Shown here: in pieces, positions 10,443 to 16,454 of the stretch
How the letters are laid out: every line of letters begins with the position of its first letter
Numbering within the stretch: the stretch's first letter is position 1
Origin: Actinotalea sp. JY-7876
Lineage (GTDB): Bacteria > Actinomycetota > Actinomycetes > Actinomycetales > Cellulomonadaceae
DNA: 64,000 bases
NCBI RefSeq assembly: GCF_014042015.1
Contig: NZ_CP059493.1
Coordinates: 1,426,001-1,490,000 of the forward strand
Direction: 5' to 3'
The notes under the pieces: generated by a model
The model's database searches: none
Seen by the model: only the letters and a program-made list of their open reading frames with translations
Told to the model about the DNA's origin: nothing
Position numbers and translations under genes: made by a program

Positions 10443-11630
10443 ATGAGACTCAGCCTGCGACCGCGCCGAGCGGCTCCTGACGAACCCGGACTGCACGGGC
10501 CGGTCCGGGTCGACCCCCGGACCAAGAACCTCACCAAGCGGCTGCGGCCCGGTGACGTCGCCGTGATCGACCACCTGGACATCGACCGCGTCTCGGCCGA
10601 GGCGCTCGCCGCGTGCCGGCCTGCCGCCGTGCTCAACGCGGCACGGTCGACGTCGGGCCGCTACCCGAACCTCGGTCCGGACATCCTCCTGGCCGCGGGG
10701 ATCCCGCTGGTGGACGACCTCGGCCCCGACGTCCTGACCCTCACGGAGGGTCGGCAGGTGCGCGTCGTCGACGGCGCGGTGTACGACGGCGACCGCCTCG
10801 TGGCCGAGGGGACCGTGCAGGACGAGGCCTCGGTCGCCGCGGCGATGGAGGAGGCCCGCGCGGGCCTGGCGGTCCAGCTCGAGTCGTTCGCGGCCAACAC
10901 CATGGACTACCTCCGCCGGGAGCGAGCGCTCCTGCTCGACGGGGTCGGCGTCCCCGACATCGAGACGGTCATCGACGGTCGCCAGGTGCTCATCGTCGTG
11001 CGCGGGTACCACTACAAGGAAGACCTCGTCGCGCTGCGGCACTACGTCAAGGAGTACCGCCCGGTGCTCATCGGCGTGGACGGCGGCGCCGACGCGATCC
11101 TCGAGGCCGGCTGGAAGCCCGACCTCATCGTGGGCGACATGGACTCCGTCTCGGACCGTGCGCTGCGGTGCGGGGCCGAGGTCGTCGTGCACGCGTACCG
11201 CGACGGCCACGCCCCGGGCGTCGAGCGCGTCGAGAAGCTCGGCGTCAAGCACGTCGTGTTCCCGGCGACCGGCACGAGCGAGGACGTCGCGATGCTGCTG
11301 GCCGACGACAAGGGCGCGGAGCTCATCGTGGCCGTCGGCACGCACGCCACCCTCGTCGAGTTCCTCGACAAGGGCCGTTCCGGCATGGCGAGCACGTTCC
11401 TCACGCGCCTGCGCGTCGGCAGCAAGCTCATCGACGCCAAGGGCGTCTCACGTCTCTACCGCCAGCGGATCTCGAACTGGCAGCTCGCGTGGCTCATCGT
11501 CGCCGGGCTGCTCGCACTCGGGGTCGCGCTCGCCTCCACGTCGGCCGGGCAGACCCTGTTCGGCCTGTCCGCCGCCTGGTTCGACGACGTCTGGTCGTCC
11601 GTGCGGGGCCTGTTCGGCGGTGGGGCATGA
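10443..11630 (+). CDS. steA: SteA-like cytokinetic ring protein
   Basis: 395 residues. The N-terminal part (about 1-170) is the SteA N domain. The middle (about 180-340) resembles the thiamin pyrophosphokinase catalytic fold, with VDGGADAILEAGWKPDLIVGD and GDMDSVSD retained. The end has one transmembrane helix (WQLAWLIVAGLLALGVALAS) and a short external tail. In Corynebacterium glutamicum SteA and SteB act together at the septum to recruit the cell-wall hydrolase RipA; the Mtb orthologue is Rv1697. The next gene encodes the SteB/MctB partner. True thiamin kinase activity is unlikely given the membrane anchor. It starts 6 nt after recN. Confidence 0.88.
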   Translation: MRLSLRPRRAAPDEPGLHGPVRVDPRTKNLTKRLRPGDVAVIDHLDIDRVSAEALAACRPAAVLNAARSTSGRYPNLGPDILLAAGIPLVDDLGPDVLTLTEGRQVRVVDGAVYDGDRLVAEGTVQDEASVAAAMEEARAGLAVQLESFAANTMDYLRRERALLLDGVGVPDIETVIDGRQVLIVVRGYHYKEDLVALRHYVKEYRPVLIGVDGGADAILEAGWKPDLIVGDMDSVSDRALRCGAEVVVHAYRDGHAPGVERVEKLGVKHVVFPATGTSEDVAMLLADDKGAELIVAVGTHATLVEFLDKGRSGMASTFLTRLRVGSKLIDAKGVSRLYRQRISNWQLAWLIVAGLLALGVALASTSAGQTLFGLSAAWFDDVWSSVRGLFGGGA

Positions 11631-11664: not shown

Positions 11665-12741
11665 GTGATCGACTTCAGGTACCACATCGTCTCCCTCATC
11701 TCCGTCTTCCTCGCGCTCGCCGTCGGCATCGCGCTGGGCGCGGGTCCGCTGAAGGAGACCATCGGCGACACGCTGACGGGCCAGGTGGAGCAGCTCCGGG
11801 CCGAGAAGGAGGAGCTGCGCGCCCAGCTCGACGACGCGTCGGCGGACCTCGCGGCGCAGGAGGCGGCGTTCGCCGCCGCCGCGCCGGAGCTCCTCGACGG
11901 CATCCTGCCCGGGCGACGGGTTGCCGTCGTGCAGCTCGACGACGTCGCGCCCGAGGTGCGCGACGCGGTCACCGAGCGCCTGACGCAGGCCGGTGCGACG
12001 GTCTCCGCCACGGTGCAGGTCACCGAGCTGTGGGACGACCCCGACCAGCGCTCCTTCCGCCAGGGCATCGCGAGCAGCCTCGTCGAGCGGCTCGACCCGG
12101 TTCCCGCGCAGGACGCGGGCACGGGGACGGAGCTGGCCGAGGCGCTCGCGCAGGCGCTGACGATGGCCGAGCCGACCGACCCGGACGCGGTCGCCGCCGA
12201 CGCGGTCACCGTCATGGACCTGCTCGTCGAGTCCGGGCTCGTCACGCTCGGCGACGGCGGCGTGAGCGCGCCGGCCGACGCCATCGTCGTCCTCGCGGGG
12301 CCCACGGTGAGCGCCGAGGAGGCCGAGTCCACGCAGGCGACGCCCGAGGACGACCCGGCCGTGCAGGAGCTCGCCGACGCGCGGCTCACGTCCGCGCTGC
12401 AGATCGCGCGCGCGGCCCAGGAGCGGTCGCGTGCCGCCGTGGTGGTCGGGGGCGAGCTCGTCGAGGGCAGCCTGGTCGAGCGGGTGCGCGCCGACGAGGG
12501 GACGGCCAGCCGCATCAGCACCGTCGAGTCGGCCAACGAGCTCGTGGGGCAGGTCTCGGTGCCGATGGCGCTGAGCGCGAGCCTCGGCGGGAGCGTGGGC
12601 CACTACGGCCCGAGCCCGGACGCCACCGCGCCGCTGCCGCCGCACGTCGTCCTGCCGCCCATCGAGCGCGTGGCGCAGGCGCCGGTCGATGCCGCCACGG
12701 AGTCCGACCCCGGCGCCGAGGCCGGCACGGAGCAGGGATGA
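11665..12741 (+). CDS. steB: MctB/SteB-family membrane-anchored coiled-coil protein
   Basis: 358 residues. GTG 11665 starts MIDFRYHIVSLISVFLALAV, the signature N-terminus of the MctB/DUF3186 family: one transmembrane helix then a coiled coil (QVEQLRAEKEELRAQLDDAS, residues about 40-65) and a large extracellular domain. The family was first described in mycobacteria as a copper transport protein (MctB, Rv1698) and in corynebacteria as SteB, the partner of SteA at the division site. The adjacent steA favours the septal role here; a role in copper tolerance is the alternative. The ATGA overlap couples it to the MraY-like gene. Confidence 0.87.
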   Translation: MIDFRYHIVSLISVFLALAVGIALGAGPLKETIGDTLTGQVEQLRAEKEELRAQLDDASADLAAQEAAFAAAAPELLDGILPGRRVAVVQLDDVAPEVRDAVTERLTQAGATVSATVQVTELWDDPDQRSFRQGIASSLVERLDPVPAQDAGTGTELAEALAQALTMAEPTDPDAVAADAVTVMDLLVESGLVTLGDGGVSAPADAIVVLAGPTVSAEEAESTQATPEDDPAVQELADARLTSALQIARAAQERSRAAVVVGGELVEGSLVERVRADEGTASRISTVESANELVGQVSVPMALSASLGGSVGHYGPSPDATAPLPPHVVLPPIERVAQAPVDAATESDPGAEAGTEQG

Positions 12742-13586
12742 GCATCGTGCGCGCCGCCGTGGCTGCGGCCACGACCGCCGCGGCCGTGACCGCCGTCGGG
12801 CGCCGTGCGCTCGGGGCGACCCTGGGCGGGTCGCCGCGCTGGACGCGGGTCAACCACCGGGGGGCACCCATCAGCCTCCTGGAGGGACCCGCGGTCGCCG
12901 CCGGGCTCGTCGCCGGCGCCCTCGCCGGAGGCAGGTCGGGGAGCAGGGAGGCGCTCGCCGGTGCGGTCGCCGCGGCGGGCGGCGCGACGTTCGGCCTGGT
13001 CGACGACCTCTCGGAGGACGTCAGCCGCACCCGCAAGGGTCTGCGGGGTCACCTCGGCGCCCTCGCGCACGGCGAGCTGACCACGGGCGGTCTGAAGGTC
13101 CTCGGCATCGGCGCCACGGGCGTCGTGGCGTCCGCGCTCGCGCTCGAGCGGGGCACGACCGGCCGCGTGGCCCACGCGATCGACGTGCTGTGCGCCGGCG
13201 CTCTCGTGGCCGGCACCGCCAACCTCGTCAACCTCCTCGACCTGCGCCCGGGGCGTGCCCTCAAGGCGGGCGCGCTGCTCGCCGCACCGGCCCTCGTGAC
13301 CGCGGGCGCACCCGCTGCCGCGGCGGCGCTCGGCGCGGCCGGTGCGGCGCTGCCGCGCGACCTCGGCGAGCAGGACATGCTCGGTGACGGCGGGGCCAAC
13401 GCCCTGGGTGCGATCGTCGGCACGGCGCTCGTACTCGGGACGCCCCGGCCCGTGCGCGCCGCACTCCTCGCCGCGGTCGTCGGCCTGACGCTCGCGAGCG
13501 AGCGGGTGAGCTTCACCGCCGTCATCGCGCGCACGCCCGCCCTGCGCGCCCTGGACGAGTGGGGCCGGCGCCGGGACCGCGCGTGA
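12738..13586 (+). CDS. divergent MraY/WecA-like polytopic membrane protein
   Basis: A 282-residue, very hydrophobic protein with perhaps eight or nine membrane helices. Three segments echo the polyprenyl-phosphate N-acetylhexosamine-1-phosphate transferase family (MraY, WecA): LVDDLSEDVSRTRKGLRGH resembles the Asp-Asp cytoplasmic motif, NLVNLLDLRPGRALK resembles the NxxNxxDG loop, and MLGDGGANALGA resembles the LGDxGS loop. The His-rich MraY loop is absent. It lies between steB and murJ with 4-bp overlaps on both sides. It may be an envelope glycosyl-phosphate transferase with an unusual active site, or a non-catalytic relative; I cannot decide. The function is unassigned. Confidence 0.75.
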   Translation: MSIVRAAVAAATTAAAVTAVGRRALGATLGGSPRWTRVNHRGAPISLLEGPAVAAGLVAGALAGGRSGSREALAGAVAAAGGATFGLVDDLSEDVSRTRKGLRGHLGALAHGELTTGGLKVLGIGATGVVASALALERGTTGRVAHAIDVLCAGALVAGTANLVNLLDLRPGRALKAGALLAAPALVTAGAPAAAAALGAAGAALPRDLGEQDMLGDGGANALGAIVGTALVLGTPRPVRAALLAAVVGLTLASERVSFTAVIARTPALRALDEWGRRRDRA

Positions 13587-15310
13587 GCCCGGCCGCCCGG
13601 CGGGCGCTGGGCGGGCTCGTCGGGGCTGCCGCGCTCATCGCGGGCATCACGGTGCTGAGCCGGCTGCTCGGCTTCGGGCGGTGGTTCGTCCAGTCCTGGG
13701 CGGTCGGCTCCACCCAGACGGGGACCGCGTACGCGACGGCCAACGTGCTGCCGAACGTCCTGTTCGAGGTGCTGGCCGGCGGCGCGCTCGCGGGTGCGGT
13801 CGTCCCGCTGCTGGCGGGACCGCTGAGCCGCGGCACCCGCCACGAGGTCGACCGGATCGCGTCGGCGATGCTCACCTGGGCCGTCGCCGTGCTCGTGCCC
13901 GCGTCGGTGCTGCTCGCTCTGGTCGCGCGCCCGCTCACCGAGCTGTTCCTGTCCCCGGAGCGCTACCCGGCGGCGACGGTCGAGCTCTCGGCGCACCTGC
14001 TGGTCGTCTTCGCGCCGCAGGTCGCGCTGTACGGCGTCGGCATCGTGCTCACGGGCATCCTCCAGGCCCAGCGCCGGTTCGCCTGGCCCGCCGCCGCGCC
14101 GCTCGCCTCGAGCGTCGTCGTCATGACGAGCTACCTCGTCTTCCGTGGGCTCGCCGTGCAGGCGGTCGACGACCCGGCGTCGCTGTCGACGGCCGCGGTG
14201 GCCTGGCTCGGCTGGGGCACGACCGCCGGCGTGGCCGCGATGAGCCTGCCGCTCCTCGTCCCGGTGCTGCGCTCCGGGGTCCGGCTGCGCCCGACCCTGC
14301 GCTTCCCGGACGGCGTCGGGCGCCGCGCGACCCGGCTCGCGCTCTCCGGCATCGGCGGCCTCCTCGCGCAGCAGGTCTCCGTGCTCGTGACGCTGCGCCT
14401 CGCGAACGCCTACGGCGACGACGGCACCGTCAACCTCTTCCAGTACTCCCAGGCGGTCTACCTGCTCCCGTACGCGGTGCTCGCCGTGCCCCTGGCCACC
14501 GCGACGTTCCCCCGCATCGCCGAGCACCACGCGCACGGCGCCCACGACGTCGCGGCGCGCCTCGTGGCCGCCAGCACGCGGACGGTGCTCGTGGTCGGCG
14601 CGGCGGGAGCGGCCGCCCTGGCCGCCGTCGCCCCCGCCGTCGCGCAGGTCTTCGGCGACGTCGACGCGAGCCGGGACCCCCAGACCGTGGCCGCCATGGC
14701 TCCGACGCTCACCCTGCTCGCCCCCGGGCTCGTGGGCTTCGGGCTGCTCTTCCACCTCTCGCGCGTCCTGTTCGGGCTCGAGCGCTCGCGCGCGTCGGTC
14801 GTGGGAGTCGCCACCGGCTGGCTCACCGTCGCTGCCGCGTCGGTCGTCGCCGTGGTCGCGCTCGCGAACGACGACGGCGACGTGGTCGGCACGCTCAGCG
14901 GCCTCGCGGTGGGCAGCTCCGTCGGCATGACCGTCGCGGGCGTCGTCCTGGTGGCGCTCGTCGCCGGTGCCGCCGGCCGCTCGGCCGTGGCCGGGCTCGG
15001 GCGCACGGCCGCCGTCGCCGTGGCCGCAGCCGTCGTCGGCGCCGTCGTCGGCCGCCGGATCGTCGACGCCGTCGCCGGGCCCGGCGACGCGGTGCTGCCC
15101 GCGCTCGGCGCGGGCGTGCTCGGTGCTGTCGCGGCCGTGGGCCTGGTCGCCGCCGCGACCGCTCTGCTGGACCGCACCACGCTGCGCGCCCTGCAGCACG
15201 CGGGAGCCGATCCCGCCGCCGCACCCGCCGAGGCCGGCGAGACCCCGGGCACCGCGCCGGGCGCCGCCGGCGCACCGCCCACGACCCCCGGGAGGGACTC
15301 CGATGCCTGA
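13583..15310 (+). CDS. murJ: lipid II flippase MurJ (MATE-like MOP superfamily)
   Basis: 575 residues with about 14 transmembrane helices and a Pro/Ala-rich hydrophilic tail. The N-terminus shows the MurJ signature (ITVLSRLLGFGRWFVQSWAV, residues about 20-39, with the conserved SR.LGF.R motif), followed by ANVLPNVLFEVLAGGALAGA. The family moves lipid-linked peptidoglycan precursors outward across the membrane. GTG 13583 overlaps the previous stop (GTGA). The gene ends 8 bp inside the next gene. No pseudokinase domain like that fused to mycobacterial MviN is present. Its place beside an MraY-like protein and a glycosyltransferase suggests an envelope sub-operon. Confidence 0.92.
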   Translation: MSPAARRALGGLVGAAALIAGITVLSRLLGFGRWFVQSWAVGSTQTGTAYATANVLPNVLFEVLAGGALAGAVVPLLAGPLSRGTRHEVDRIASAMLTWAVAVLVPASVLLALVARPLTELFLSPERYPAATVELSAHLLVVFAPQVALYGVGIVLTGILQAQRRFAWPAAAPLASSVVVMTSYLVFRGLAVQAVDDPASLSTAAVAWLGWGTTAGVAAMSLPLLVPVLRSGVRLRPTLRFPDGVGRRATRLALSGIGGLLAQQVSVLVTLRLANAYGDDGTVNLFQYSQAVYLLPYAVLAVPLATATFPRIAEHHAHGAHDVAARLVAASTRTVLVVGAAGAAALAAVAPAVAQVFGDVDASRDPQTVAAMAPTLTLLAPGLVGFGLLFHLSRVLFGLERSRASVVGVATGWLTVAAASVVAVVALANDDGDVVGTLSGLAVGSSVGMTVAGVVLVALVAGAAGRSAVAGLGRTAAVAVAAAVVGAVVGRRIVDAVAGPGDAVLPALGAGVLGAVAAVGLVAAATALLDRTTLRALQHAGADPAAAPAEAGETPGTAPGAAGAPPTTPGRDSDA

Positions 15311-16454
15311 CCAGCCGACCCACCGCGAGGCGAGCGGCACCGGGCCGCGCGTGCTGCAGGTCCTCGGGTCCAGCGCCGGGGGCGTCGCCCGGCACGTCGC
15401 CCAGATCGCCGCGGCCGCTCCCTCGCGCGGGATCCGGGTCGCGGTCGCGGGTCCGGCCGCCCTGCGCGCGCAGGTGGCGGGGGAGGGCGTCCCGTACGTC
15501 CCCGTCGAGATCACCGACCGCCCGGGGCCGGGCGACGTGGCGGTCGTCCGCCGGCTGCGTGCGCTCGAGCGGACGACCGACGTCGTGCACGCCCACGGGC
15601 TGCGCGCGGGTGCGCTCGCGGTGATCGCCGCGGCGGGCCTGCGGGGCCGGCCGGCGATCGTCGTGACGCTGCACAACCTGCCCGTGGGCGGGGCAGCGGT
15701 CCGGGCGATCGCCGAGGTGCTCGAGCGCCTGGTCGCGCGGGGAGCGGACGTGGTCCTGGGGGTCTCGGGTGACCTCGTGGAACGTGCCCGGGCGCGCGGG
15801 GCCCGCCGCGCGGAGCGGGCGCTCGTGCCCGCCCCGCCGCACCCGGCGCCGACGTCGGACCGCGCGGCGGTGCGCGCGGACCTCGGGGTGCCGGACGGCG
15901 GACGCCTGCTCGTCACGGTGGCCAGGCTCGCGCCCCAGAAGGGGCTCGACCTCCTGTGCGATGCGGCGGCGCACCTGGCCGGCGTGCGGGGGGACGTGAC
16001 GTGGGTGCTGGCCGGCGACGGGCCGCTCGCCGACCACCTCGCGGCGCGGGTCGCCGACGAGGCGCTGCCCGTGCGCCTGCTGGGTCGGCGCTCGGACGTG
16101 GCGGACCTCATGGCCGCCGCCGACGTCGTCGTCTCGACGGCACTGTGGGAGGGGCAACCGCTGGGGGTGCAGGAGGCCCTCGCGCTCGGTGCGGCCGTGG
16201 TCGCGACCGACGTCGGCGGGACGCGCGAGGTCACCGGCGACGGCGCCGCGGTCCTCGTGGCGCCCGATGCGAGCCTGGTGGCCGGCGCCGTGGCGGCGGT
16301 GCTCGGCGACGACGCGCGCCGCGCGCACCTGCGCGAGGCGGCGCTCGCGCGCGCGGCCGAGCTCCCGACCGTCGCCGACACCGTCGACCAGCTCGAGCGC
16401 GTGTGGCGGGACACGGCGACGCGGCGGGGGACCGGGACGCCGCGCGTCGGGTAG
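15303..16454 (+). CDS. GT4-type glycosyltransferase
   Basis: 383 residues with a GT-B fold. The N-terminal domain starts [20 protein letters not shown], the loop that holds the acceptor and donor phosphate. The C-terminal domain has [13 protein letters not shown] and the E-x7-E motif (EGQPLGVQE), typical of retaining GT4 enzymes that use nucleotide sugars. No signal peptide, so it acts in the cytosol on a lipid, peptide or small-molecule acceptor that cannot be named. It overlaps murJ by 8 bp; its TAG stop lies within the putative -10 of pyrG. A role in making an envelope glycan is inferred from context. Confidence 0.87.

Follow-up and report, generated by a model that had tools for sequence, protein, structure and literature searches.

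Between steB and a murJ-like gene of Actinotalea sp. JY-7876 lies a gene for a short membrane protein, and the locus raises the question whether its product is a working relative of MraY and what it does beside the steA and steB genes. The window, the whole stretch of 64,000 nucleotides that was analysed, holds this open reading frame at 12738-13586 on the + strand, and the product is given the working name PNL. Translation of the window resulted in a protein of 282 amino acids with an ATG start and a TGA stop, which confirmed the frame and the length proposed in the initial annotation. On the same strand PNL is preceded by steA (10443-11630; NF040608, 517 bits with the cut-off of 150; related to the solved SteA chains 9hmy and 9hmz, E 1.8e-96) and steB/mctB (11665-12741; PF11382, E 3.8e-80; related to the solved SteB/MctB chains 9m9z, 9hle and 8au6), and followed by a MurJ-family flippase gene (13583-15310; PF03023, E 3.1e-44) and a GT4 glycosyltransferase gene (15303-16454; PF00534, E 1.1e-25). 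The stop codon of steB and the ATG of PNL overlap as ATGA at 12738-12741, and the TGA of PNL overlaps the GTG start of the murJ-like gene at 13583. Due to these overlaps on both sides of PNL, the translational coupling of steB, PNL and murJ2 is plausible; it had been annotated as a fact. The neighbour had also been described as the lipid II flippase MurJ. The family assignment held, but a MurJ with a better profile score was found elsewhere in the 3.55 Mb host genome (G000:C1:3533871), and the copy in the window is thus a second one, murJ2. The stronger match (G000:C1:3533871-3535202, locus L027) is part of an open frame of 1406 residues outside the window. The absence of R52, E57 and R270 from MurJ2 was considered as a sign against lipid II flipping, but this was rejected because the stronger MurJ of the genome is also without these residues; R18 and R24 were retained in 42 of 42 sequences in the MurJ2 residue check.

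As a single sequence PNL had no match in the Pfam, NCBIfam or PDB sequence searches, and profiles were required. Twenty-four PNL orthologues from named genomes formed alignment A1, and the mean column identity of alignment A3, which comprises diverse members, was 36%. PF00953 was matched at E<=1 by 23 of 37 family members (best 4e-6), and one relative found in the genome search exceeded the cut-off of this family with 30.1 bits. The A2 profile matched only MraY in the PDB, with the best E of about 0.001. In hhalign comparisons the set of 88 PNL relatives aligned with 31 actinobacterial polyprenyl-phosphate sugar-1-phosphate transferases (PNPTs) at E 1.7e-11 and with the WecA/TagO-type PNPT, the best profile match, at E 1.4e-10. 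Over all comparisons with PNPT profiles the E-values, each of which refers to a single comparison, were about 1e-8 to 2e-11, and those of the MurJ2, SteB and GT4 control profiles were above 0.1. With four MraY sequences alone the first run gave a weak probability of 32%, and 95% was reached with a larger family alignment. Judged by these profiles, PNL is nearer to WecA than to MraY.

The AlphaFold2 models of PNL and of a member from a distant lineage had pLDDT values of 93.5 and 92.8, respectively. The PNL model consists of nine membrane-length helices followed by two short helices. When both models were searched against the PDB with Foldseek, every match of probability 1.00 was MraY or DPAGT1, and the matches listed below these had probabilities of 0.14 or less, which is noise. 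The query TM-scores were 0.51-0.61 with MraY and up to 0.65 between DPAGT1/GPT of eukaryotes and archaea and the deep-lineage model. On the basis of the Foldseek, hhalign, PF00953 and PDB profile matches, it is therefore well supported that PNL is a true homologue within the MraY/WecA/GPT (PNPT) superfamily, whereas its membership in MraY or WecA proper is not supported. The MraY-like assignment of the initial annotation was borne out by the profile searches and by the predicted fold, which is that of MraY and DPAGT1 and not a different one. The canonical enzymes of the host genome are encoded at other loci, MraY with the motif APLHHH at L026 and a WecA-like protein with HLHH at L025. The gene context of PNL differs from that of MraY and from that of DPAGT1.

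The residue conservation was determined in the 88 PNL relatives using the numbering of the window protein. D89, D90, H105, K120, N165, D168, P171, R173, D217 and S258 were invariant in all 88 sequences. The pair D89-D90 (13002-13007, +) was aligned by hhalign to the Asp-Asp pair of MraY, and D168 and D217 to its D193 and D265. In MraY, D117, D118 and D265 form a triad which is critical for the activity, and D265 coordinates Mg2+ (PMC6606608). Judged from the alignments, the catalytic residues of PNL would probably occupy the corresponding positions in space. K120 (13095-13097, +) probably corresponds to the conserved Lys of TM4, K133 in E. coli MraY, a match that comes from one alignment with MraY. 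N162, N165 and D168 are followed by LRPGRALK (13221-13265, +), which replaces the DGLDGLA of the uridine loop, and in M214-L-G-D217 (13377-13388, +) the Mg-binding Asp is retained while the uracil-stacking Phe is substituted with Met. The counterparts of the Asp-Asp, Asn-rich and LGD loops that had been annotated thus proved to be real, and PNL shares the DD pair, the NxxNxxD loop and the GD Mg motif with the WecA/TagO-type PNPTs (PF00953, COG0472) in addition to the fold.

In contrast to the metal centre, the nucleotide site differs from that of the canonical enzymes. The uracil pocket of MraY is built from K70, G194, L195, D196 and F262 (PMC6606608). In PNL, G194-L195-D196 is replaced with L-R-P and F262 with Met, and the replacing residues are themselves conserved (L in 79, R in 82, P in 88 and M in 87 of the 88 relatives). 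Among the canonical actinobacterial PNPTs, DGLDGL was present in 31 of 31, this motif having been used to pick the canonical frames and every locus fetched with PF00953 having contained one; FMGD was present in 30 of 31, and one was not scored. The replacement of the uridine loop, which the initial annotation did not contain, is the most telling difference from canonical PNPTs.

The loss of the His-rich loop, which had been annotated, was verified as well. HHH or HxHH occurred in none of the 88 PNL relatives, and the His-rich Loop E was present in 26 of the 31 canonical actinobacterial sequences as cut for the test. According to the alignments and the model helices, TM9b, Loop E and TM10 of MraY/WecA are replaced with a conserved C-terminal segment, SExxSF...LRxLDxxGRR (13497-13571, +). 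The chain, of about 280 residues, stops after LRxLDxxGRR in a short C-terminal helix, whereas in MraY Loop E and TM10 follow; the predicted PNL models do not show the ten-TM layout with TM10 after Loop E. H324 of Loop E in Aquifex aeolicus MraY was inferred to be catalytic with the support of mutation (PMC4790310), so that the lack of a counterpart in PNL genuinely speaks against a reaction of the ordinary MraY type. The full retention of the metal and phosphate residues together with the loss of the grip on UDP suggests a reaction or binding event in which polyprenyl (pyro)phosphate meets an unusual partner molecule.

The distribution of PNL was determined by profile searches. PNL was detected in 110 of 297 genomes of the class, usually as a single copy, and in 120 of 296 genomes of the phylum, of which 115 were kept after weak matches below about 33 bits were dropped. 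SteA was present in 111 of these 115. Over the 296 genomes of the phylum 111 had both proteins, 4 only PNL, 15 only SteA and 166 neither, the Fisher p-value of the co-occurrence being about 1e-58 with phylogeny not corrected for. The two genes were separated by 15 kb or less in 98 of 100 scorable pairs with a median of 2.8 kb. Most of the SteA-carrying Actinomycetota apart from the Mycobacterium-like ones have PNL beside steAB, and this distribution is the new part of the finding. The Mycobacterium-like genomes are without PNL; one steA-positive genome lacking it was recognised as Mycobacterium-like by the match of its SteA to a solved chain. Owing to the near-constant siting beside steA and steB, PNL appears to be a third component of the cell-separation system that has escaped notice, although neighbourhood alone does not prove a shared function.

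In nearly all of the first 44 loci the order was recN-steA-steB-PNL-murJ2-(GT4)-pyrG-NUDIX; many Cellulomonadaceae loci and related ones have no GT4 at this position. In the genomes with steA and without PNL, recN, steA, steB and pyrG were mostly consecutive, and PNL, murJ2 and GT4 were absent together; the exception, L123, keeps GT4 and a weak PNL remnant. The genomes of group f25, which look Streptomyces-like by size and gene content, have the order recN-PNL-GT4-PucR-type regulator-glycosidase-pyrG, the last two names being given by eye, with no local steAB or murJ2, and SteA was not found in the genomes of this group that were searched. In the f25 genomes (e.g. loci L064 and L080) PNL and GT4 are kept and PNL is without LRxLDxxGRR, its C-terminus being further shortened. 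A search of the Streptomyces literature with guessed locus tags found no mention of the PNL gene.

In the deep lineages of Actinomycetota the commonest order was steA-steB-GT2-PNL-pyrG, and some of these loci have MurJ2 or GT4 close by. A short GT2 gene between steB and PNL was located at L141:7352-8026, L155:7358-8041, L159:7296-7994 and L161:8200-8877, the last by sequence only; the deep-lineage GT2 scores below the cut-offs of AglJ and related lipid-sugar synthases, which it resembles. The Bacillota were sampled with a single clostridial record, Acetoanaerobium noterae NZ_CP154629.1 (L161), in which the order is recN-steA-steB-GT2-PNL-x-NUDIX and the PNL signatures are the same. This record contains a clear SteA homologue (L161:6160-7305), which scores 471 bits against the local profile, although PMC12977500 describes SteAB as mostly confined to Actinobacteria. 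The PLSDB 'plasmids' L161 of 2.6 Mb, which carries the recN and steAB region, and L162 (NZ_LT559118.1, Nonomuraea gerenzanensis) of 11.9 Mb look like chromosomes. In several deep-lineage loci PNL is adjoined by a protein of 730-770 residues (L146:5613-7844, L149:8885-11200, L152:8862-11105, L154:8880-11075) whose N-terminus looks like a signal or membrane segment. By eye this protein resembles an enzyme of the alkaline phosphatase superfamily, and it had no Pfam match in the three loci scanned. As GT4 is absent from many orthologous loci, and neither MurJ2 nor GT4 adjoins PNL in many deep-lineage loci and in the clostridial record, both were rejected as an obligatory partner, and the annotated role of PNL as a partner of MurJ or of the GT4 turned out to be too narrow. 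From the co-occurrence and the spacing, the constant partner is SteAB together with some glycosyltransferase.

The SteAB proteins have been studied in M. tuberculosis as well as in Corynebacterium glutamicum. In the latter, according to PMC12977500, SteAB is a septal complex which activates the septal hydrolase RipA and has been suggested to sense the status of cell-wall metabolites, and SteA has a conserved phosphonucleotide-type pocket with predicted carbohydrate binding and is stabilised by GDP or UDP. This stabilisation and the predicted pocket make it plausible that the partner pathway involves sugar nucleotides. For mycobacteria a preprint reports that SteA (TapA) acts together with MtrB and independently of SteB (PMC12338722). 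The PNL gene is unmentioned in the available portions of PMC6705760, PMC12977500 and PMC12338722.

Tentatively, PNL is read here as an active phosphotransferase that takes polyprenyl phosphate as its substrate, draws on an unusual donor and supplies a lipid-linked precursor tied to cell separation, which is the likeliest single reading while falling somewhat short of an even chance. The Asp pair and the TM4 Lys would engage polyprenyl phosphate, D217 would hold Mg2+, and a phospho-group would be transferred to the lipid carrier or removed from it. The donor would be held otherwise than the UDP-sugars in MraY and WecA, since LRPGRA and Met reshape the uracil pocket and the lid of Loop E has given way to the short C-terminal segment. 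The reaction would yield a sugar or glycan on the lipid carrier, which the glycosyltransferase of the locus, a GT2 in deep lineages and a GT4 in many Actinomycetes, would extend; in many Actinomycetes MurJ2 would flip it. This pathway may be tied by physical or functional contact to SteA and SteB, the controllers of septal wall splitting. Such an activity is favoured by the MraY/DPAGT1 fold of two separately modelled distant members, the invariant catalytic counterparts, the steA linkage and the glycosyltransferase neighbours, and disfavoured by the absent Loop E His and the vanished UDP pocket. A shared pathway is weakened by loci lacking MurJ2 or GT4 and by the f25 genomes that keep PNL without steAB.

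The same losses could mean that PNL is a receptor. At its retained Mg/diphosphate site it would bind a lipid-linked precursor (lipid II or undecaprenyl phosphate) and signal the amount present to SteA/SteB, and the splitting of the wall would be held back until the precursor is supplied. The retention of the phosphate and Mg residues without the nucleotide pocket and Loop E, the near-constant SteAB linkage and the sensing suggested for SteAB (PMC12977500) agree with it. However, receptors seldom conserve the whole catalytic set, which is intact in all 88 sequences, the adjoining glycosyltransferases suggest synthesis, and the Streptomyces-like genomes have PNL and no SteAB to report to; we consider this rather unlikely. 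The non-catalytic role raised in the initial annotation is disfavoured by the completeness of the same set. As a PNPT-derived scaffold of a SteAB/MurJ2/glycosyltransferase complex PNL would not need strictly invariant acidic, Lys and Asn residues, and although the missing Loop E, His motif and TM10 and the further shortened f25 C-terminus fit a scaffold, it is improbable. Least probable is a phosphotransferase of the ordinary kind that uses UDP-sugars (e.g. UDP-GlcNAc or UDP-Gal) in a pocket of altered shape, primes a conventional secondary wall polymer and is linked to SteAB only historically, through the recN-pyrG region. Glycosyltransferase and flippase neighbours and the fold common to UDP-GlcNAc transferases such as DPAGT1 speak for it, but PNL lacks the UDP-binding residues of the superfamily: G194, L195, D196 and F262 of the pocket (PMC6606608) are all changed to near-invariant different residues, and the SteA linkage persists where other neighbours change.

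A further reading is an ancestral SteA-SteB-glycosyltransferase-PNL system with PNL as its catalytic or sensing core, in which SteA would supply the lost nucleotide binding, a septal lipid-linked sugar would directly trigger cell separation, and the Mycobacterium-like lineages would have kept the SteAB half only; taken as a whole, this is doubtful. Should PNL produce or detect a lipid-linked precursor, it would offer a direct and testable handle on the input of SteAB. As an MraY-fold lineage with the nucleotide pocket exchanged and the metal centre kept, PNL is informative for the catalysis of the superfamily and for drug selectivity.

A 2025 study of pseudomurein archaea described OG0001207, long-branch MraY/WecA-like membrane proteins essentially restricted to these archaea, with about 63 bacterial homologues (PMC11915815). 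Set beside PNL by description only, these bacterial homologues may include the PNL family; in that case the sequence family would be less novel, and the novelty of the SteAB linkage would be unaffected.
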